Of a stretch of 27,890 nt of DNA, positions 7,471-20,086 are shown in pieces. Below the pieces are notes generated by a model. The model had not been told where the DNA came from. It was given only the letters and a program-made list of their open reading frames with translations, and searched no databases. Both the position numbers and the translations under genes were made by a program. The DNA is taken from IMG/VR virus record IMGVR_UViG_3300031759_000121, positions 1 through 27,890 of that record; one strand, 5' to 3'. Numbering within the stretch: the stretch's first letter is position 1; each line of letters starts with the position of its first letter. The DNA is from a virus.

Positions 7471-10400
7471 TTAAAGTCCGGCCGGGCCACCGCTCGGAGC
7501 TCCTGGTGTTGGTACAACCGCTGGGGCAGGACCTGCTCCAGTATCTACTTCGGCACTGCCCAAATCAGTATTAGTCAAGTCAGTATTCATATCTAAATCA
7601 GATGATAATCCGCCCGGAGTAATGCCCACACTACGAAGACCTTGTCCTTGCTGTGCCTGCATTTGTGGATTGTCGCGTTCTTCTTTCCATAGTGTTTCAT
7701 TTTCTAATATTTCTTCGTCGGACAAACCTAAGAAACGTTTGAGTGTAAATCGTTTGCTGAGATAATTCAATGGTTCTAAAGAAGCAAATGTTGCTACACG
7801 AGCTGTATCCAGCTCAGATTGGCGATAACTGGCAAAATTCTGTGGTTCTGTTAATGTTATGTCAAACAACCCGTTATCAATTTCAAAACCTCTCCATCGC
7901 ATGTACATTTTAAATTCGTCATCTAATTTCTGCATTATTAATTTCTGTAGGCGTTCGCAGTATTTGTTGAATCGAAATTCTTGTATTAATGCTGTACCCA
8001 CACGTCCATCGTTAGTGGCGGCTCCGGAATCATCCGGTCCTGTGGGCAAATAGCTACTAGGCACACGCAGACCTCTAGCCATTTTGTTGTTAAAGTATTT
8101 TAAATCATCAATTTCGCCTAAGTTTGAATTTTTGGTAAACACACCGGCACTTAACGCAAACGTATGATAGCCATGATAAATTTCATCACCGTCGATAGTT
8201 AAAGTACCAACATCCATTGGCTCATCTAAGTATTCAATTTTAGCAATTCGATGGTTGTGAACGCTTTCTTTTTTACGGAAATCAGACCAGCTAGTATAGC
8301 CATACTGTTTAACCATACTAGTCAGTCCTGTTGCTGTAAATCCTTTGTCTATACTCCAATTGCGAACTTTTTTATCTTTGTTTAATATTGCCAATTCATT
8401 AACGATGTTGATATTTTTATTCAGTTCATCGATAATATCATTAACAGTTATTTCGTGCGTAGTTTTGTCTTTAACCATATCGATCACACGCTTAAGCATA
8501 CTGTGAGAATATGACACTGATTGCAATTCTTTCATATTGCTACGACGTTTTTCGTTGTTTTTCCAATCTTTTAGGTTACGGTCAGATACAAATTTACTAC
8601 GTTCTTCTCTTAGCTCACTAGTCCAACCAGCTTTTTGTTGTTCACATACCCATTGACGATATTCTTCATCTTTGGCCATTTTTTCTAGTTTTGTTTTGTT
8701 TGCTATTTTAAATGCAGCTCTACTGTTAGCGGTCCGGATTGCCTTTGAATCATCATCTAATGATTCAAAGTACTTTTTAAGTCCAGCTGCCTTATTCTCA
8801 TTTAATTCTACTAGTTCTTCTTCTGTTAATGAACTATACCAATTTGTAAATCTTTCACCAACAGTTTTACAATATTTTTCATATTCTGCTAGATTATTAT
8901 CTTTAAGATTTTGTAATCTACGTTTTGCGGCTAGTGTACCCAACTGTTGAGATTCTTTAGAAAATCCATGATGTTGATGTAGTTTTTGATGGTCGTGCCA
9001 TGCCATCCAGCATAAATTTTCCGGGCTGTTATCATGCCTGTTAAAATTTACATGATGTCTGACATCATATTTGCCATCACTGTATTCTTCGTTAAATATT
9101 TTATATTTTACTAACGTATCTTTAAACTCATCTGCTACCATTCGATGAGTATATTTCCATTGTTTACTACTATTATCAAAGTATTCTTCATATCCATCGA
9201 GTTTAGTGTCACAAACTTCTTTTTTACGATATAATGGAATTAAACTATCACCAACTGTCAGTTCATCAGCACGTTTGAATTCTACATCATACTGGGGAAA
9301 TTTATGATCTGGTGTACATATAATAGATTCACCATTGTCTAAAGTAATCTTTAAAACTTGTGCTTGCCGTTGCGTCATGCCAGCCCAAGATACTAATCCT
9401 GGTACAACTTTGCCTGTTATAGGTTCACAACTATAAACCCAAAGCGTTTTACCTTCTGCTAATTCATCAGATACTTGTGCTATAGTAAGTTCTCTACCAT
9501 CTAACAATGACACACTAGTGTCCATACTAAAACATCCACCTGGCAATACTTCAATACTACTTCCTCTACCATCTGAAGTTTGCGGGAAAAAGTAATCTTC
9601 ATTTACAGACAACGCATTATAACTAGCGTCCATCATATTAGCCCCGCCGCCTGATATAGTTGGTATTCTGCGCTGATGCATTTCATTTTTAACACGTTCC
9701 ACAAACGCCATAGCCATATGGCTGGGCATGTTACCCACATCTATCTTGAACAAACGTCGTTCTGGGGCACGTTGTACACGATATATCAATATAGAATCTT
9801 CTAGTAGCTCTTTTTGTTTGTAAACTTTATAGATATTTTCCAGTATACTTTGTCCAAACGGCCAAAAATAATCTAATCCCTCGTTTAAACTCAAATGTAC
9901 CACATGTTTAGAGTCAATACATGATTCATTCATAGCTTGTGTAAAGCGGCTGTTACCCACACCGCCTCCGCCGCCACCACCAGATCCACCGTTAGGTGCG
10001 TTGTAATTATTTCCCGTAGTAACCGAACCAGTGCTACGACTCACATAGTAGTCTGATGTAGTCTTGGCTGCCATGCTCATATTCTGAAAGTTAGGATTTA
10101 TATCGCGTATGATATACTGCTCAGGACGTTTGCCTTCGCTTTCATTAACTATGATACGTGCTACTTTAATCATGTCTACCCAATACATTTCAAATGTCTC
10201 GGGATCACGCACAAACACTTGATCCCCATATTTAATAGTGTTTCGAAACAGTTTAAATATACGTTGATCCAGCTTGTTTAATTTAGTCCATTGCTGTAAC
10301 TGTTTTTTTATTATTTCAATTTCATGATCAGTGGGTTTATTTGTAAATTTAATATCAAAAGGAGTGCCATTGTCGCTGTTTTGCTGTGTGCTAAATTCTG

Positions 10401-10704
10401 CGATAATGTCTAAACAAGCATTGACTTCTGAATCACAATCCATGTTTTCATACTGATTGTAGCGTTCTAATCTATTTGGATGTCCAGAATATACTTCGGG
10501 TAATCTAGACGCATAGTTTCTAAAAGCAAATTCATTGCGACTACCTGACTCAAAATCTCCGCTGTTGCGATTGTACCCAGGCAATCCAAAATTATTTTTG
10601 CCAGATATAGGACTCAGTTGTCCCAATTGATTAACGTCAGCAACTTTGAAGTACTTTCTCCAAGAACCCCCGTTGCGACTGTTGTGTCCGTCATTAGTAG
10701 CCAT
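7471..10704 (-). CDS. 20: Portal protein gp20, interrupted by an HNH intein
   Basis: The 1077-residue precursor contains the T4-type portal vertex protein, split by an in-frame intein (residues 391-859). Joining the flanks gives a portal of 608 residues. The N-extein shows family features: 'ENMDCDSEVNACLDIIAEF', 'FRNTIKYGDQVFVRD', 'HLSLNEGLDYFWPFGQSILENIYKVYKQKELLEDSILIYRVQRAPERRLFKIDVGNMP'. It ends 'SSIEVLPGG'. The C-extein continues 'SNLGEIDDLKYFNNKMARGLRVPSSYLP', the equivalent of the conserved LPGG-NLGEIDD segment of gp20. A glycine-rich run lies near residues 240-250. The portal forms the dodecameric ring through which DNA is packaged and to which the neck attaches, so infection should depend on splicing. 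GCTAAATA stands directly before the ATG. Confidence 0.96.
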   Translation of the reverse strand: MATNDGHNSRNGGSWRKYFKVADVNQLGQLSPISGKNNFGLPGYNRNSGDFESGSRNEFAFRNYASRLPEVYSGHPNRLERYNQYENMDCDSEVNACLDIIAEFSTQQNSDNGTPFDIKFTNKPTDHEIEIIKKQLQQWTKLNKLDQRIFKLFRNTIKYGDQVFVRDPETFEMYWVDMIKVARIIVNESEGKRPEQYIIRDINPNFQNMSMAAKTTSDYYVSRSTGSVTTGNNYNAPNGGSGGGGGGGVGNSRFTQAMNESCIDSKHVVHLSLNEGLDYFWPFGQSILENIYKVYKQKELLEDSILIYRVQRAPERRLFKIDVGNMPSHMAMAFVERVKNEMHQRRIPTISGGGANMMDASYNALSVNEDYFFPQTSDGRGSSIEVLPGGCFSMDTSVSLLDGRELTIAQVSDELAEGKTLWVYSCEPITGKVVPGLVSWAGMTQRQAQVLKITLDNGESIICTPDHKFPQYDVEFKRADELTVGDSLIPLYRKKEVCDTKLDGYEEYFDNSSKQWKYTHRMVADEFKDTLVKYKIFNEEYSDGKYDVRHHVNFNRHDNSPENLCWMAWHDHQKLHQHHGFSKESQQLGTLAAKRRLQNLKDNNLAEYEKYCKTVGERFTNWYSSLTEEELVELNENKAAGLKKYFESLDDDSKAIRTANSRAAFKIANKTKLEKMAKDEEYRQWVCEQQKAGWTSELREERSKFVSDRNLKDWKNNEKRRSNMKELQSVSYSHSMLKRVIDMVKDKTTHEITVNDIIDELNKNINIVNELAILNKDKKVRNWSIDKGFTATGLTSMVKQYGYTSWSDFRKKESVHNHRIAKIEYLDEPMDVGTLTIDGDEIYHGYHTFALSAGVFTKNSNLGEIDDLKYFNNKMARGLRVPSSYLPTGPDDSGAATNDGRVGTALIQEFRFNKYCERLQKLIMQKLDDEFKMYMRWRGFEIDNGLFDITLTEPQNFASYRQSELDTARVATFASLEPLNYLSKRFTLKRFLGLSDEEILENETLWKEERDNPQMQAQQGQGLRSVGITPGGLSSDLDMNTDLTNTDLGSAEVDTGAGPAPAVVPTPGAPSGGPAGL
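8128..9534 (-). mobile_element. Intein with HNH homing endonuclease inside gp20
   Basis: This 469-residue insert starts at Cys (codon 9532-9534, after ...VLPGG) and ends with Asn (codon 8128-8130), followed by extein Ser. Splicing motifs are visible: block A 'CFSMDTSVSLLDGREL', block B 'GESIICTPDHKF' (TxxH), and a C-terminal block 'MDVGTLTIDG' and 'HTFALSAGVFTKN'. The penultimate residue is Lys, not the usual His. The middle contains an HNH nuclease signature around intein residues 158-186 (VRHHVNFNRHDNSPENL, then WHDHQKLH), followed by a long helical basic region that probably binds DNA. The insertion site is a highly conserved portal segment, as expected for a homing intein. The insert looks more AT-rich than the exteins by eye. 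Boundaries rest on motif reading and restoration of the portal sequence. Confidence 0.93.
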
Positions 10705-10721: not shown

Positions 10722-13187
10722 TTAGCTTTGTCGTTGTAATATCTTGTTGTTTATACTGTTGGCTTTTTCCATAGTACGCACTATAGCGTCCAATTTATTT
10801 AACTGCATAGCCATCATGTTCATTTGCTCAGAAGATCCAGTATTTTGTGTCATCTGAACTGGTATATTTCTTCCATCTGGCAATGGTACCACAGCTTCGG
10901 TGTTGTGTAACATAGCAGTATAGCCGCTTTTTGGTCCGCTTAGTATTCCGCCAACCTCGGCTGTGGGCATATTATTAGCAAAAGCCGAAGCATATTGTGT
11001 TCGTTTATCTGTTTCTTCTTTTCCACCTGCATACCCTACAGCTTTTCCAGTTTGTTTTATATCGCTTAAATCATATTTCTTCGAAGCTTCTTTGAAATAA
11101 GCCACGGCAATTTTTTCAGCAACTTCGGGATCATTCGCTAGATCCGGATCTTTTACCAAATCAACCCCAATCAACTTACTAAATTTTGAATAATTGTCTT
11201 TTCCAGTAAGTTGTATAAGTCCTCGGCCACGATATTTGTATCCCTCGTCACCGGCATTGCCCATTCTTCCGCCGTAAATGAAATTACCAATCGCCTCTGG
11301 ACCCTGTGCTGCCAGGGCATCTGCCTCGTCTTGTGATTTAAATTTTTTCGGAAACAATTTCATCAATGTTTTACCGGAATAATTTAAATTTTCTGACTGG
11401 GGTTTGAAATTACTTTCTGCTTTTATTTGAGCTAAAATATTTGCCTGCGATTGATTATCTGTTATACCCGAAGCTGACAACAGTTTTACTATGTCGCCTG
11501 GATTTACAGAAGCAGGCTTCCCTCCTGCCGCTGGTTTAAGAGTTGCAGCAGGTGCTGGTGCTGGGGCTGGCGATGGGGCTGGTGCTGGTGCTGGCGATGG
11601 TGCTGGTGCTGGGGCAGGTGCTGGTGCCGGGGCTGGTTTGGGTTTTGCCAGAGGTGCCTCTTGCGGCCCACTGCCTGACACAATATTACCCATTTCGTCA
11701 TATTGAGTTTCCCCCAGCGCCGTTTCTGCTTTAGTAAGAGCGGGGGCTGGTTCTCCCAGTTTACCCAAAGCCTTTGCTGCCGACATTGCGGCATTTGCCA
11801 CAGCTACCATGCCTGTTTGTACAGCTTTTTCGGCAGTTTGAGTAAGCTTACGCTGAGCCATACTTGCCGCCACTGCCACAGCCGTTTCTTTATCTGCGCC
11901 TGCTTTTTGTTTATCCTGCTGATCTTTGGCATCTTTTATATTTTGTGCCATGGAAGTACCTGCTGTAGAAGCAAATTTTACTAAAACGCCCTGAGAAGTA
12001 ATAATCGAATCAGATAATCCAGCACCGGCTAATCCGACTGTATCATTAAGAGTTTTTCTAGAATCTTTGGCTGCCAAATCCATGGCCACACCCATGTCTC
12101 GGCCACCTTTTTGTATATACGACGCTGTTTCTGGCAAAGATCTAGCTATTTTTTGATATTCAGGATTATTAACTGCTCCAGAAAGCAACAATGTCATCTG
12201 ATCTGCAGCTTCTTGTCCACCTTTACCAAAAGCGGCATTTATCAATTCTGTATTTCTAGCCAATTCTTCTTTGGCGGCTATATCCCCAGCATCTGCTCTT
12301 TGTTGTAACTGGAAGGCCTTGCTGGCATATTGTTGTGTGGCCAATGCTTTTTCTTGTACAGAATTTTGTTGATCTGCTGACAAACCAGTTAGTTTTGTCA
12401 ATCGGTCTTGTTGTTCTATATAAGCTTCGGCACTGGCTGCCATCTGTTCTGCTGTTTGTTTTTGAGAAGATCCGCTTAACTGTTGTATTTTGACATAGCC
12501 CGCCATACCTCGATTAATATCATCTACGGTCATGCCCATGCGTTGGAATTGCTCGCCAACACCACTTTCTGCTATACTTTTAGATGCCGCGGCAAATTGT
12601 TTTGCTCCTTGCGCTGCCGTACCTCCTAATGTTGACAAATTAGAGGAATTTTCTTTCATCAAAGCACCCATTTTACCAATCTCACCCATGGTATAACCCA
12701 TGCTTTGTAGATTTTCAAATGTGTCCTGCATGCCAGTAGCTAGTCCGCTACGACTTATGTCTCTATAGCCATCTAATAGTTCTTGACCCTGTTTGATTGC
12801 GGCTTTGGCAAATTCAGTAACAGCCCCAACAGCGAAAACCAAAGCTTTGCCCAACAGTCCCACAGGACCAAGAGCTAAGGTCAATGCGGCACCAGCAGCA
12901 TCGGCAGCTGAACCAAATTCCGATACACTATTACCGCCAGATGCTAATGATTTAGCCAAACCCAACGTAGATGAACCTAAATCAGCTTTGGCTTTTTTCA
13001 TAGCCTCAGTATAGCCTAATATGCCTTTTTTAGCGTCTGCTAATGCGGTTTCATAGGCTTTTGATGCGGACAAATATTGTGCGGAGCTTTTTCCATGAGA
13101 CGCCGCAAAGCGAGTCATATCTTCGGCAGCATTTTCTAAAGCTATACGTAAATCGTCGGAAATTTTCGGGTCAAATTCTTCAGCCAT
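10722..13187 (-). CDS. Tape-measure-like tail protein fused to a GH19-type muralytic domain
   Basis: This 821-residue protein has four parts. Residues 1-510 are helical and Ala/Gln-rich, with a hydrophobic segment near 98-130, as in tail tape-measure proteins. Residues 512-549 are an almost pure Ala-Pro linker. Residues about 565-735 form a GH19-like peptidoglycan or chitin hydrolase: 'QIKAESNFKPQSENLNYSGKTLMKLFPKKF' carries the candidate catalytic E591 and E599, followed by 'GNFIYGGRMGNAGDEGYKYRGRGLIQLTGKDNYSKF'. Residues 742-780 match a C-terminal element common in tape-measure proteins ('VGGILSGPKSGYTAMLHNTEAVVPLPDGRNIPV'). It probably acts in the tail, cutting the cell wall during DNA entry. 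It replaces neither a free endolysin nor a T4 gp29 that I can recognise. It is the first leftward gene, only 26 bases from the divergent gp26-like gene. Confidence 0.85.
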   Translation of the reverse strand: MAEEFDPKISDDLRIALENAAEDMTRFAASHGKSSAQYLSASKAYETALADAKKGILGYTEAMKKAKADLGSSTLGLAKSLASGGNSVSEFGSAADAAGAALTLALGPVGLLGKALVFAVGAVTEFAKAAIKQGQELLDGYRDISRSGLATGMQDTFENLQSMGYTMGEIGKMGALMKENSSNLSTLGGTAAQGAKQFAAASKSIAESGVGEQFQRMGMTVDDINRGMAGYVKIQQLSGSSQKQTAEQMAASAEAYIEQQDRLTKLTGLSADQQNSVQEKALATQQYASKAFQLQQRADAGDIAAKEELARNTELINAAFGKGGQEAADQMTLLLSGAVNNPEYQKIARSLPETASYIQKGGRDMGVAMDLAAKDSRKTLNDTVGLAGAGLSDSIITSQGVLVKFASTAGTSMAQNIKDAKDQQDKQKAGADKETAVAVAASMAQRKLTQTAEKAVQTGMVAVANAAMSAAKALGKLGEPAPALTKAETALGETQYDEMGNIVSGSGPQEAPLAKPKPAPAPAPAPAPAPSPAPAPAPSPAPAPAPAATLKPAAGGKPASVNPGDIVKLLSASGITDNQSQANILAQIKAESNFKPQSENLNYSGKTLMKLFPKKFKSQDEADALAAQGPEAIGNFIYGGRMGNAGDEGYKYRGRGLIQLTGKDNYSKFSKLIGVDLVKDPDLANDPEVAEKIAVAYFKEASKKYDLSDIKQTGKAVGYAGGKEETDKRTQYASAFANNMPTAEVGGILSGPKSGYTAMLHNTEAVVPLPDGRNIPVQMTQNTGSSEQMNMMAMQLNKLDAIVRTMEKANSINNKILQRQS
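11541..11642 (-). repeat. Ala-Pro-coding low-complexity repeat
   Basis: About 100 bases of near-perfect GGTGCT hexamers (plus-strand reading) encode alternating Ala and Pro, with occasional Ser, at residues 516-549 of the tape-measure-like protein. It forms a stiff, extended linker before the GH19 domain. The pattern creates long spurious open frames in other phases. Its copy number may vary by slippage. Confidence 0.9.
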
Positions 13188-13213: not shown

Positions 13214-14053
13214 ATGAACTCTAATAACCCATTGAAACAATATTTTAGACAGCCTGCTGTGTATATCAAATTACCCAGTCAAGGCAATTACTATCCAGCA
13301 GGCACATTAGAAATGCCAGAAAATAAAGAATTGCCAGTATACCCTATGACTGCCATAGATGAAATAACCTATCGTACCCCCGATGCGTTACTCAGCGGAC
13401 AAGCAGTGATCAATGTGATTCAAAGCTGCGTCCCAAATATAAAAAATGCTTGGTTTATTCCGTCCATAGATGTGGACACTATATTGATAGGCATAAGATT
13501 AGCTAGTTATGGACACGAAATGGACTTTACTACCAGTTGTCCAGGATGTAACACTACCAAAGACTACGGAGTAGACCTACGCAGAACTTTGGATAGTATT
13601 CAAGCTCCTGATTATAGTCAACCTATCATACAGGGCGATATTGAAATATATTTCAAACCCATGACTTACAAAAATCTTTCGGATAATAATAAAATGCAGT
13701 TTGATGATCAACGCACGTTAAACTCTCTAAATATCAGTTCGGCAGATGATGTCACTAAGATATCAGCCATAGCAGATGCCATCAAAAAAATGACCGAAAT
13801 GACAGTGATAGCTCTAGCACAAAGCATAGTTACCATAAAGACACCCACGGCTATAGTAAACGAACCAGAATACATAACAGAATTCATGATAAATTGTGAC
13901 AGAACCATGTTCAATCGCATACAAAATTATGTTATTGAAAAGAAAACCATGGCAGAGATGCAGCCTTTGGAAATAACCTGCGATCAATGTCAGCATACTT
14001 ACAAGCAACCACTCACACTGGATATGTCAAATTTTTTCGAGCGCGCCTCCTAA
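13214..14053 (+). CDS. 26: Baseplate hub protein gp26-like
   Basis: This 279-residue protein matches the gp26-type baseplate hub subunits of T4-like phages. The N-terminal part reads 'VYIKLPSQGNYYPAGTLEMP', then 'ITYRTPDALLSGQAVINVIQSCVPNIKNAWFIPSIDVDTILIGIRLASYGHEM'. Two cysteine pairs (C109/C112 as CPGC, C256/C259 as CDQC) probably bind one zinc ion, as in relatives. The C-terminal region holds 'EYITEFMINCDRTMFNRIQNYV'. Its role is hub assembly on the baseplate. An AAGGA ribosome site (AAGGAAAACCAT before ATG) is well placed. It is divergent from the tape-measure-like gene by 26 bases and is followed after two bases by gp51, the usual partner. Confidence 0.9.
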   Translation: MNSNNPLKQYFRQPAVYIKLPSQGNYYPAGTLEMPENKELPVYPMTAIDEITYRTPDALLSGQAVINVIQSCVPNIKNAWFIPSIDVDTILIGIRLASYGHEMDFTTSCPGCNTTKDYGVDLRRTLDSIQAPDYSQPIIQGDIEIYFKPMTYKNLSDNNKMQFDDQRTLNSLNISSADDVTKISAIADAIKKMTEMTVIALAQSIVTIKTPTAIVNEPEYITEFMINCDRTMFNRIQNYVIEKKTMAEMQPLEITCDQCQHTYKQPLTLDMSNFFERAS

Positions 14054-14055
14054 CT

Positions 14056-14268
14056 ATGACCAACGAACAGATCTCAGAATACATAGATGATCTGGATAAA
14101 GAATCAGATGCGATAAGGACGGAGGCGTTACGTATGTGTTGGTACATGCGGGGTGGAATTACCTATGATGATGCCATGCAGCTCAGTAACTCAGAAAAAC
14201 AATTGATATCAAAGATTATTGATGAAAACTTAGAAACGACGAAAAAAACAGGACTTAACTTTTTTTAA
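14056..14268 (+). CDS. 51: Baseplate hub assembly protein gp51-like
   Basis: This gene encodes 70 residues from the ATG two bases after the gp26 stop codon; a longer in-frame reading overlaps gp26 and is not supported. The sequence is acidic at the start (ISEYIDDLDKESDAIRTEALRMCWYMRGGITYDDAMQLS) and ends 'ISKIIDENLETTKKTGLNFF'. The 'MRGG..YD.AM.LS...K..I..II.ENLE.TKK.G..FF' pattern fits the small gp51 proteins found directly after gp26 in marine T4-like phages. T4 gp51 itself is much larger (about 249 residues). In T4, gp51 is needed for hub assembly but is not part of the finished virion. Translation is probably coupled to gp26. Confidence 0.8.
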   Translation: MTNEQISEYIDDLDKESDAIRTEALRMCWYMRGGITYDDAMQLSNSEKQLISKIIDENLETTKKTGLNFF

Positions 14269-14399: not shown

Positions 14400-14445
14400 C
14401 AAAAGCTAAAAACAAATTTGTTAAAGAGTTAATTTGAATAATATT

Positions 14446-14467
14446 AAAAGATTAGCTACGCTAATCT
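14446..14467 (-). terminator. Possible leftward terminator
   Basis: On the minus strand, AGATTAGC-GTA-GCTAATCT forms an eight-base-pair hairpin followed by only a few T residues. It is the first hairpin-plus-T signal met after the GIY-YIG gene and the structured region. The short T-run makes it a weak candidate. Confidence 0.4.
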
Positions 14468-14499
14468 AAGATCTCGTTTGCACTCGATCTTATTTTTTT
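14467..14499 (+). terminator. Rho-independent terminator for the gp26-gp51 transcript
   Basis: TAAGATC and GATCTTA form a seven-base-pair stem with a 12-base loop, followed immediately by seven T residues on the plus strand. It lies about 200 bases after the gp51 stop codon. It shares bases with the leftward hairpin at 14446-14467, making a compact convergent terminator. Confidence 0.7.
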
Positions 14500-14870
14500 A
14501 GCTTTTGATTGTAGCACTTCATCTAGATTAACAGCTCATAATTCACCGTAAACACGGTGAATTCAATGACTTCATCTGAGTTGCACAGTCATCTATCATA
14601 AAGAGATTGTAGTTTCCTACGCGGAGGCGGTTGACCGGTACCCCCTACTCTAGCTTCACATGTCAACGGAACCCTAGTGACTTGATGATAAATCCAAGTT
14701 CTATAAGCATGGGTCGTATCTTTTTCCACGGAGCCCAAACCATTTGTTGCCTTAAGTTAGCTTTTGCCTTTGACGCCCGAGCGAACCGAAGTCCATTCTA
14801 TCCGAGCTGGGTATCTCACCAGCCCTCAACGGGGATCGAGCAGCCTCGATCAAACGTAGTCGGTTAGATG
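14500..14870 (-). ncRNA. Candidate structured non-coding RNA
   Basis: This 370-base stretch has no plausible protein gene and looks clearly richer in G+C than its surroundings. Read on the minus strand it contains two tetraloop hairpins of standard RNA type: GGAC-TTCG-GTTC (14783-14794) and GTAG-GAAA-CTAC (14609-14620, a GNRA loop). Both loops lose their special sequence on the plus strand. Further hairpins are GATCGAG/CTCGATC (14834-14851), GCTGG/CCAGC (14806-14823), GGGGG..CCTCC around CGG-TCAA-CCG (about 14620-14645), and AATTCACCGT/ACGGTGAATT (14540-14563). It begins directly after the GIY-YIG stop codon and may extend through the cloverleaf to about 14400. I do not recognise it as tRNA, tmRNA, RNase P RNA or a group I or II intron. 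Confidence 0.55.
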
Positions 14871-14872
14871 CC

Positions 14873-15313
14873 TTACTGTGATGCTTGTAATTTATTGATT
14901 ATATGGCTGCCATGTACGCGGACTTGTATATGCCCGTTATAGTAGTCGTTAGTTTCTAACACACGTCTACTAAACTGTTCTCTGGCCTCTATGTAACTGC
15001 ATTCGGCTTTTGAACGGCAATAATACAAAATCTCTCTGGTAAAGTTTTCGATGCCTAATTTTTCAATATCTTGATTGAGTTCTATACTGCTGCCGGTGTA
15101 CTGTTGCCAGTCGCTGTCTATTTTACTACGGATGCGTTTTCTTTTTTTGATGCCGTTTTTTTGTTTAACTGTTTTATATGTTGTTTTACTAAATTTTGCT
15201 AATTTTTTACCAATATATTTTCTGCCAGTCAAGTTATTTTTAATCAAATAAACAAAACCAACACAGTCGTCGGGTAGTGATTCTACAGTAGTATTTTCGA
15301 AAAGCCAGGGCAT
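14873..15313 (-). CDS. GIY-YIG nuclease family protein
   Basis: This 146-residue protein has a GIY-YIG domain: 'VGFVYLIKNNLTGRKYIGKKLAKF' (from about residue 18; the G-Y/Y-I-G motif appears as VYL and KYIGKK), a basic insert 'VKQKNGIKKRKRIRSK', 'DWQQYTGSS' and 'LGIENFTREILYYCRSKAECSYIEAREQF'. The E in 'EAREQF' is the likely metal ligand. Similar proteins are widespread in cyanophages, from memory, and may be nucleases of homing or recombination type; no separate DNA-targeting domain is visible. It lies 39 bases after gp46, at the end of the gp55-gp47-gp46 transcript, and directly upstream of the structured RNA candidate. The Shine-Dalgarno sequence is weak. Confidence 0.85.
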   Translation of the reverse strand: MPWLFENTTVESLPDDCVGFVYLIKNNLTGRKYIGKKLAKFSKTTYKTVKQKNGIKKRKRIRSKIDSDWQQYTGSSIELNQDIEKLGIENFTREILYYCRSKAECSYIEAREQFSRRVLETNDYYNGHIQVRVHGSHIINKLQASQ

Positions 15314-18166: not shown

Positions 18167-20086
18167 CTATTCTGGCAGTTCTTCTTCAAATGTGGTAATA
18201 GTAACTTTGGCATCTAAGTTTTGATCTTTTTTGCCAGCATTTTGTCTAGTCCAACTTGGATTCAGCCCATTCATTTCTAACATATCGTCACGAATGTTTT
18301 GATTCTTTTTTTCACTGTTGAGTACATGAGTAAATGAATTGGTAATAGCCGCGGTATAATAAGCAAAAGGATTTTGACTCTTACTTTCGTCAAATCTCAA
18401 TCCAATTTGACTCAACTGAACTAGGGCCGCCCCTCTCATTTCTTCATTATAGGTATTACCAGTTAGGTATACAGTGCCATTACGTCTAGCTACAAAGCAG
18501 CCATATTCAGTTTCTGGACACCATACTTGTCCTTGATACGCAGTAGTGGGTTCGTTGGGATGAGTAATTTTGCCTTGGCCAACGTGGGCTCGGCCATTGC
18601 GTTTGCCACCGTGAAAGTTAACACAATGTACTTTGGTAGTGTTTTTACTTTTAGAAAATAAATTTACGGCATAGCATTGACTTGGTTTACCAAAAGACAA
18701 TGATTCTCGCAGATGTGTATTGGTTCTCACCCCCGCTAGTACGCACAATGCTTGGAATAAGTCAACATGATGTTTGTCTTTTTGAACATAGCTTCTACCA
18801 CCGTTGGCTCTACGCCAGCCATCACCGTCAATCATAGTTTCAATCAACAGTTCGCGCTGTCGAACGGTCAGTGCTAGTATAAATTCCATATTGAGATTTT
18901 TTTCCGGAAAAGTTTTTATAATCTCTCTGCAGTCATTTCTGCTGATAGAAAAGCAGAGATTCTTACTTCTTTGTCCTTCACTAAATTTATAATTTAACGC
19001 AGTCAAGCAGTTTCTAATACGATCAGCTTTGGCTCCAGCATTTTGATAAATCGTGATACGTTTAATATTCCCCAAATGTTTTTCATCATGTCGTTCAATT
19101 TCATAACAGCCTTCGGTCATGATCCATCCTGCTAGTTCTACAAAGCTGTCGGGATATACTGCCTCGTTGGTATCTCGAGGAGCAGGCGCTAACAATATCA
19201 TACGATCTGTTTCTTTCAGTAGCTCTACAGGAACAAGTCCAGTGTCAGTGACTATTTTGTGATGTGGTGTGACCAAGGAGTCTAGACCACGCATGGTCAA
19301 ACGATGCATTAGACCATTGTAATTATCCCGGAAAATACTGCGGATCTTACTCCAAGCCAATTCACTGCCGTTATAACTTAAAATACGATCTTGTTTAGAT
19401 ATATCGTTGATGCCCACCCAGCCTCGATTGGTCAGTGCTTCTGTGACTTCATCAACGCAGTACCCGCGCCAGTTGCTGCGGGTAGCATAACGATCGCACA
19501 ACTTCATAAACATGGTGGCTAATATGCGTGTCATGTTACCGTGATCTTTACTGAATTCACCATTTTCTAAATCACCTTGCCAATGGCTCTTGCCCACAAT
19601 ATAGGGTTGTTTTTTACTGTCTATCCTATAGTGATAAAATGGAGGAAATGGCAATCTCACGTATTTGTCGCTCATTACGGGATCATCTGGTAAAACAGGA
19701 ATAAGTTCTTCTTCTGCATCATCAAAATCAAATAGATCTTCGATTTTTTTCTTTTTAGTAGCGGATTTGGGTATTTTTTTTGGAGCCATAGGTATATGAT
19801 CCCAGCAGGTAATTCTAAATACTAAATCAGTATTGGGTATTTTTTTAGGATCTGTGACTACACCAGTTTCTTTTTTAATACGATCAGCACGATTACGTCT
19901 AGCCTCTGCTACTGTGCGCTGATTGATTTTCATTACTGTGGGCAAAATAATGTCGTATTGATGATCGTTTACAGGATCTAAAAATGAACAGTAAGTGTTT
20001 TTGCTAAGATGTATTTGTGTTAAAATATCTCGATTATTAAGATATATGGTTTTGGTACCTTGTTTGCCTATTGCGGTTGTAGCCAC
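18167..20086 (-). CDS. 55: Late-transcription sigma factor gp55, interrupted by a LAGLIDADG intein
   Basis: The 639-residue precursor contains the gp55 sigma-like factor, which directs host RNA polymerase to late promoters. An in-frame intein occupies residues 210-544; the spliced protein would be 304 residues. The N-extein has 'YLNNRDILTQIHLSKNTYCSFLDP', 'KINQRTVAEARRNRADRI', an acidic/basic stretch near 105-130, and 'GKSHWQGDLENGEFSKDHGNMTRILATMFMKLCDRYATRSNWRGY'. The C-extein starts 'TYNEEMRGAALVQLSQIGLRFDESKSQNPFAYYTAAITNSF'. Rejoining restores the conserved NWRGYTYNEEM core of gp55. It is much longer than T4 gp55 (185 residues), mainly through an N-terminal extension that marine relatives share. 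Translation starts at GTG (20084-20086), with AGGAG eight bases upstream. Confidence 0.95.
   Translation of the reverse strand: MATTAIGKQGTKTIYLNNRDILTQIHLSKNTYCSFLDPVNDHQYDIILPTVMKINQRTVAEARRNRADRIKKETGVVTDPKKIPNTDLVFRITCWDHIPMAPKKIPKSATKKKKIEDLFDFDDAEEELIPVLPDDPVMSDKYVRLPFPPFYHYRIDSKKQPYIVGKSHWQGDLENGEFSKDHGNMTRILATMFMKLCDRYATRSNWRGYCVDEVTEALTNRGWVGINDISKQDRILSYNGSELAWSKIRSIFRDNYNGLMHRLTMRGLDSLVTPHHKIVTDTGLVPVELLKETDRMILLAPAPRDTNEAVYPDSFVELAGWIMTEGCYEIERHDEKHLGNIKRITIYQNAGAKADRIRNCLTALNYKFSEGQRSKNLCFSISRNDCREIIKTFPEKNLNMEFILALTVRQRELLIETMIDGDGWRRANGGRSYVQKDKHHVDLFQALCVLAGVRTNTHLRESLSFGKPSQCYAVNLFSKSKNTTKVHCVNFHGGKRNGRAHVGQGKITHPNEPTTAYQGQVWCPETEYGCFVARRNGTVYLTGNTYNEEMRGAALVQLSQIGLRFDESKSQNPFAYYTAAITNSFTHVLNSEKKNQNIRDDMLEMNGLNPSWTRQNAGKKDQNLDAKVTITTFEEELPE
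18455..19459 (-). mobile_element. Intein with LAGLIDADG homing endonuclease inside gp55
   Basis: This 335-residue insert starts at Cys (codon 19457-19459, after NWRGY) and ends at Asn (codon 18455-18457), with Thr as the first C-extein residue. Splicing motifs are block A 'CVDEVTEALTNRGWVGINDI', block B 'GLDSLVTPHHKIVTD' (TxxH), and the C-terminal 'EYGCFVARRNGTVYLTGN'. The penultimate residue is Gly rather than His. The endonuclease has two LAGLIDADG-type motifs, 'LAGWIMTEG' (intein 109-117) and 'LIETMIDGDG' (205-214), with candidate catalytic acids E116 and D213. Both motifs appear intact, so the homing enzyme may be active. It is unrelated in nuclease type to the portal intein, which points to separate acquisition. 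Confidence 0.94.

Follow-up and report, generated by a model that had tools for sequence, protein, structure and literature searches.

Polynucleobacter-1 (Rfam RF01718) is listed as a probable cis-regulator in Burkholderiales and fresh water, without phage context (Weinberg et al. 2010, PMC2864571). The RNA described here lies in a window of 27,890 bases, the whole stretch of DNA that was analysed, which comes from an IMG/VR virus record and belongs to an uncultured lake phage, T4-like by gene content (portal with intein, prohead protease, capsid, hub, gp46, gp47 and late sigma factor). We refer to RNAs of the window type as class A and to phage RNAs whose 5′ part is RF01718 as class B. The RF01718-led phage RNAs occupy the locus of the window RNA, behind the same GIY-YIG gene, and share with it an arm-loop pseudoknot, a pseudoknotted core (PKa), twin heptamers, a tail hairpin and a terminator. 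They differ in that RF01718, which spans the first 141 positions only, has no match in the 5′ domain of the window RNA. On sequence evidence, RF01718 is only the 5′ part (the first third) of the RNA of one subtype, and the window RNA is an uncatalogued subtype of the same superfamily with a different 5′ domain. A short orphan Rfam motif of 2010 thereby grows into a superfamily of full-length RNAs whose fold is defined, with at least three phage subtypes and one chromosomal subtype. In one group of T4-like phages the superfamily occupies a set site, and in chromosomes its protein neighbour is constantly DUF6641; the role of the motif therefore becomes testable through its fold, subtypes, phage locus and neighbour.

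GOLLD, ROOL and OLE, which are large and ornate, build assemblies of RNA alone (PMC12286853). The window RNA resembles them in being large, conserved and pseudoknotted, and GOLLD and ROOL are linked to phages; the window RNA is shorter, however, and has no match to them in Rfam. The initial annotation, which proposed an undescribed structured phage RNA at this site, had been unable to match it to GOLLD or ROOL, and rightly so: membership of GOLLD, ROOL or HEARO was rejected because the Rfam covariance models have no match in the window. Space between phage genes in which Rfam finds nothing can thus contain a large conserved RNA.

Genomic context and coding potential

The RNA is encoded on the minus strand (14445-14873, with approximate, inferred ends), where a GIY-YIG stop codon forms its 5′ boundary and the T run of a probable terminator its 3′ boundary. 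The SegE-like GIY-YIG gene (14873-15313, minus strand; PF19835, E = 5e-32; phrog_447) lies immediately upstream on the same strand. On the other side, a small plus-strand gene (13987-14268), whose ORF is kept in relatives, is convergent with the RNA and follows the hub gene (13214-14053; PF12322). Elsewhere in the window, the portal protein (7471-10704) contains an intein (PF14890), part of which is HNH-like; gp55, the late sigma factor (18167-20086), carries a large insert that resembles a second intein but has no Pfam match; and a NUMOD3-type homing endonuclease (1384-2223) is close to the capsid gene.

The view that 14400-14870 holds no credible gene was borne out. The ORFs wholly within this stretch, of 49 aa (minus strand) and 78 aa (plus strand), gave no match in Pfam or PHROG, and their frames are open in 5 and 8 of 57 homologues, respectively. 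Most deletions that homologues show against the window have lengths not divisible by three (109 and 32 vs 32). The check for a decayed gene did not count against the RNA. The raised G+C content that had been noted is also present (0.43-0.56 over approximately 14550-14850, compared with 0.21-0.37 immediately to the left). Rfam searches of the window, both at the gathering level and with E up to 10, returned only chance matches such as mir-183, and a tmRNA or tRNA was ruled out, as neither Rfam nor ARAGORN, which found nothing in the window, gave a match. No promoter for the RNA was recognised by pattern scan. Comparison of the folding energy with shuffled sequences supports the proposal only weakly, with a z-score of -1.73 for the minus strand (4 of 100 shuffles were equally good) and -2.77 for the plus strand, a value to which terminator-like stems contribute. 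The case for a structured RNA is a comparative one, and folding energy alone would not decide it.

A scan of IMG/VR with the GIY-YIG and gp46 proteins provided 160 loci, over 100 of which match the minus strand of the region with 60-89% identity. Wherever a locus shows both, the RNA is 3′ of the GIY-YIG gene or of one further gene on the same strand; it is always on the strand of the upstream gene and the gene order is constant, with gp55-gp47-gp46-GIY-RNA followed by the convergent hub gene. In 178 of 188 class A loci, the ORF that follows the RNA is convergent with it; with no downstream gene left to control, the RNA can hardly be a leader or 5′ UTR. At four loci (L003, L117, L128 and L023), an extra gene separates the GIY-YIG gene from the RNA, which then begins after the stop codon of the extra gene; by eye, this gene resembles SGNH or sulfotransferase-like proteins. 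A pattern scan with the conserved core found at least 120 stretches, and 10 of the 12 phage records searched with the class B model described below, which reach 355 kb, have exactly one copy. Searches of cultured phages at the DNA level found nothing, and the GIY-YIG homologues examined in cultured phages sit in packed gene arrays from which the RNA is absent. A genome scan with the core pattern gave 78 matches, mostly in high-G+C genomes, as chance would give.

Covariation and fold of the RNA

An alignment of 57 distinct class A sequences with the window as first row (A1) was made with MAFFT, as were the other alignments. A structure of 65 pairs that includes two pseudoknots fits these sequences with 92.9% of cells paired, compared with 84.7% after shuffling and at most 46.4% when the structure is slid along the alignment. 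Thirty-four pairs changed on both sides (20.6 for the control) and there are 309 double-change cells (92 when shuffled); the structures used for these pair counts derive partly from the same data, while the slid controls and a class B model described below are independent. These helices were also recovered by a mutual-information scan of 120 class A sequences, as was the pairing of the arm loop with the segment that follows the core. Among 94 distinct class B sequences, covariation supports a long-range helix, a 5′ pseudoknot, the arm-loop contact, PKa, the core helices and the terminator. The homologous regions thus contain covarying helices and two pseudoknots, and together with a homologue at the equivalent site of more than 100 contigs and the lack of an Rfam match, this upholds the proposed structured phage RNA. 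Comparative analysis confirms that the minus strand of about 14873-14445 specifies a structured non-coding RNA of approximately 420 nt.

The RNA begins with a 5′ domain (14772-14861; all features are on the minus strand) in which a long-range helix, GAC/GUC, closes two hairpins and an inner helix, CCCG/CGGG (A1 helices 1-4; both sides changed in 15 of 20 pairs). This is followed by a hairpin, UGGG/CCCA with inner CG/CG (14710-14737; A1 helices 5 and 6), that shows the pairs UA, GC, CG and AU, and by the arm hairpin (14680-14699; A1 helices 7 and 8), whose loop (14692-14686) pairs with 14598-14592 to form pseudoknot PKb. The 3′ strand of PKb (14592-14598) shows covariation in classes A and B. 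In the window, the arm-loop contact is UUUAUCAU with AUGAUAGA, with one C-G pair in place of the U-A pair of its relatives, and the homologous pairing in class B is 96% paired with 92 double-change cells. The second pseudoknot, PKa, joins GUUGA (14663-14667) to UCAAC (14630-14634), the latter inside GGUACCGGUCAACCGCC; the GUUGA strand is invariant in class A, and the pairing covaries in class B, where there are 69 double-change cells. A GGGG/CUCC helix (14623-14645) crosses PKa and has an outer pair that is G-C in 37 and A-U in 20 of the 57 sequences. The helix AGAG/CUCU (14602-14651), with an outer pair that is A-U in 38/57 and U-A in 19/57, encloses the PKa core and the GNRA hairpin GUAG-GAAA-CUAC (14620-14609; A1 helices 12-13), for which up to 23 double changes per pair were counted.

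The initial annotation had deduced the strand, correctly, from two tetraloops. The GNRA hairpin is strongly supported by covariation, but the UUCG hairpin (GGAC-UUCG-GUUC, at about 14794-14783) is clade-specific: it is present in the window as a local insertion and absent from most homologues. A hairpin predicted by RNAalifold, ACUAG...CUAGAGU (A1 columns 213-245), was set aside because it is incompatible with the covarying AGAG/CUCU helix and PKa.

The 3′ part of the RNA features two copies of the heptamer AGAUGAA, R1 (14571-14577, in the context CUC-R1-G) and R2 (14518-14524, in the context UCU-R2-G), on either side of a hairpin, UUCACCGU/ACGGUGAA (14542-14561; A1 helix 14), that is 100% paired. 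A tail hairpin with the loop GAGUGCAAACGA (14468-14491) has a covarying stem (columns 388-411 of the class A alignment) and is of the GAGCG-NRA-GCGAA type in most relatives. The RNA then ends with a probable intrinsic terminator, AGATTAGCGTAGCTAATCT-TTTAA (14449-14467), that was identified by a pattern scan (1 found, 0.5 expected) and has a stem that covaries in classes A and B.

Relationship to RF01718-bearing RNAs

The more distant phage loci match only the 3′ half of the window RNA profile, and the 5′ part of their RNAs is RF01718 (82-120 bits). A covariance model was constructed from 18 class B cores, with no window-like sequence included. In the window, this model has a sole match at 14669-14517 on the minus strand (59 bits, E = 2.8e-12) that covers positions 1-140 of 140, and it matches other class A loci with E values from 1e-4 to 3e-14. 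As a model made only from class B finds the window over its full length, the window RNA and the RF01718-bearing RNAs form one superfamily. The features of this superfamily are all found in the window RNA: the PKb arm-loop pseudoknot, PKa crossing a helix of the GGGG/CUCC type and identical twin heptamers. By contrast, the RF01718 model itself (141 nt, gathering cut-off 37 bits) has no match in the window at the gathering level or with E up to 10, nor in the class A phage records G002 and G005. The suggestion of a possible new class of non-coding RNA therefore requires qualification: the subtype is new and uncatalogued, but it is not isolated, since its 3′ half is homologous to RF01718-bearing phage RNAs. 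A strong match to a known family was not found, the related family being catalogued only as the fragment RF01718.

Seven loci (L005, L037, L042, L044, L048, L066 and L073) encode a further type of RNA, class C, of approximately 440 nt, with the twin heptamer ACATGAA and no Rfam match. On reading the sequences, what class C has in common with the other classes appears to be limited to the twin heptamers, tail hairpin and terminator, and the covariance model of class B cores does not match it.

Co-switching of the twin heptamers

The twin heptamers (AGATGAA twice in the DNA of the window) are spaced 48-63 nt apart across the family. R1 and R2 are identical over all seven letters in 92 of 94 class B sequences, and in 111 of 120 class A sequences, where the nine exceptions comprise six shifted columns, one bad alignment and two real differences. 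On a class B tree built without the heptamer columns, position 1 changes approximately 19 times in R1 and 21 times in R2, such trees being approximate. At the variable positions in class B, R1 and R2 agree in 98-99% of cases, compared with 50-65% expected. The switches involve all four letters with hardly any mismatched intermediate, so identity has been kept through about 20 of them. Gene conversion is an unlikely cause of this identity because the flanks differ in a fixed manner (CUC before R1, UCU before R2). The chromosomal twins obey the same identity rule with other letters (AGCGAAA, AGAGAAA, GGAGAAA, GGCGAAA, AACAAAA and ATCAAAA). Such strong identity covariation within a structured RNA, repeated some 20 times, is unusual and points to a definite partner or contact.

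Covariation in classes A and B revealed no pairing partner for the heptamers inside the RNA. Copies of the heptamers are not enriched in 2.1 Mb of flanking DNA (190 sense and 138 antisense for a phage's own heptamer, 190 and 144 for permuted cores), and no coupling stands out between heptamer letters and residues of the GIY, gp46, gp47 or hub proteins. CsrA sites, C/D boxes, ribosome hopping of the T4 gene 60 type and template-jumping reverse transcription were considered as explanations of the twins and rejected, as the heptamer variants, the unphased spacing or the lack of a suitable gene nearby speaks against each.

Chromosomal copies and DUF6641

Of 399 Burkholderiales genomes, 4 contain RF01718; within a single bacterial genus, probably Polynucleobacter to judge by the Rfam name, it occurs in 20 of 186 genomes. 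The virus contigs carry no host label, so a phage host can be proposed from the chromosomal relatives alone. A DUF6641 gene is divergent from the RNA in all 27 chromosomal loci examined (L488, L489, L491, L492 and L512-L534), 20 of which have a Xer-type recombinase in the short flank. Defence genes are near the RNA in both of the loci that were seen with wide context: a complete Zorya type I set in one, and a PDC-M33 set with a methyltransferase in the other. By eye, the chromosomal RNA extends 3′ beyond RF01718 with a GUUUC/GAAAC-CGCC element, a tail hairpin and a terminator, and the first of these looks like the counterpart of PKa. The covariance model of class B cores has no match in the chromosomal copies, and DUF6641 was not found in nine phage records, a search for which the control was likewise without a positive. 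Other DUF6641 genes (L507, L509, L510; L495, L499, L511) have structured-looking intergenic stretches upstream, of at least two types, in which RF01718 has no match.

Proposed mode of action

The RNA is probably a stand-alone structured non-coding RNA, part of a superfamily of T4-like phages and chromosomes, that acts in trans via two copies of one binding site. We infer its transcription, trans action and binding as follows. The RNA would be made either as the last part of the gp47-gp46-GIY transcript or from an internal promoter, and would stop at the probable terminator. Its multi-pseudoknot body could be a rigid scaffold that presents R1 and R2 unpaired, allowing them to bind two copies of one partner, either a dimeric protein or a nucleic acid. 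A partner preference that varies between phages would lead both heptamers to change together. Such a trans partner would have to supply a third matching change at every switch, and about 20 triple changes with almost no intermediates are a lot to ask; if the twins touched each other directly, two changes would be enough. That economy is the attraction of supposing that R1 and R2 are in like-with-like base contact, so that the twin pattern is part of the fold, but their spacing varies from 48 to 63 nt and we know of no precedent in natural RNA for parallel like-with-like pairing over seven bases, which leaves this explanation very doubtful.

A role in cis is unlikely in our view: as a 3′ UTR element, the RNA would protect, process or regulate the gp47-gp46-GIY transcript, or prevent read-through into the convergent hub gene. 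In the loci examined, its start does coincide with or closely follow the stop codon of a same-strand gene, a terminator closes it and no promoter was found; yet it is far larger and better conserved than a terminator requires, a further gene intervenes after GIY in some phages, and the chromosomal RNA is divergent to DUF6641 rather than behind a GIY-YIG gene. The RNA is therefore not tied to one message. The common superfamily of phage and chromosomal RNAs, and the proximity of the latter to Xer-type recombinases and, in two cases, to Zorya and PDC-M33 genes, would also fit a phage RNA that serves as a mimic or antidote, competing with the chromosomal RNA of host mobile elements that carry defence genes beside DUF6641. 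We regard this as quite improbable, because a copy number of one and a constant position at a core locus in many phages suggest a core function, the heptamer cores differ between the phage and chromosomal sets, DUF6641 has no known defence role and the search of nine phage records, whose control also lacked a positive, did not find it. GIY-YIG genes often reside in introns, and a divergent self-splicing intron or other ribozyme left by a homing GIY-YIG gene would account for a highly conserved RNA. However, the RNA is intergenic between complete genes and interrupts none, group I and II models fail to match at E values up to 10, and inheritance of the locus is vertical, so this origin is highly improbable. 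There is equally little to recommend a DNA element in which proteins bind the repeats R1 and R2, such as an origin of replication or a site of recombination: direct repeats recall iterons and gp46/gp47 are recombination genes, but the covariation in helices, pseudoknots and loop contacts is that of RNA pairs on one strand. Beyond the probable trans-acting RNA, a bolder and unlikely proposal is that this widespread superfamily of large T4-like phages and chromosomal DUF6641 elements, which can carry anti-phage genes, acts through twins kept identical by an undescribed mode of recognition (like-with-like contact, or paired docking of a fast-changing partner), with rival versions in phage and host.

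Largely uncoded stretches of 0.9-1 kb are also present in the distantly related cultured jumbo phages PA5oct (L277, about 11190-12080) and Phosso (L483, about 9410-10425), beyond a Holliday-junction resolvase gene near gp46, in a neighbourhood like that of the window RNA. The RNA profile has no match in the gaps of PA5oct, Phosso or Atu_ph07, and the PA5oct and Phosso stretches are positional analogues only, with no sequence similarity to the window RNA family or to each other; they may hold other large RNAs.
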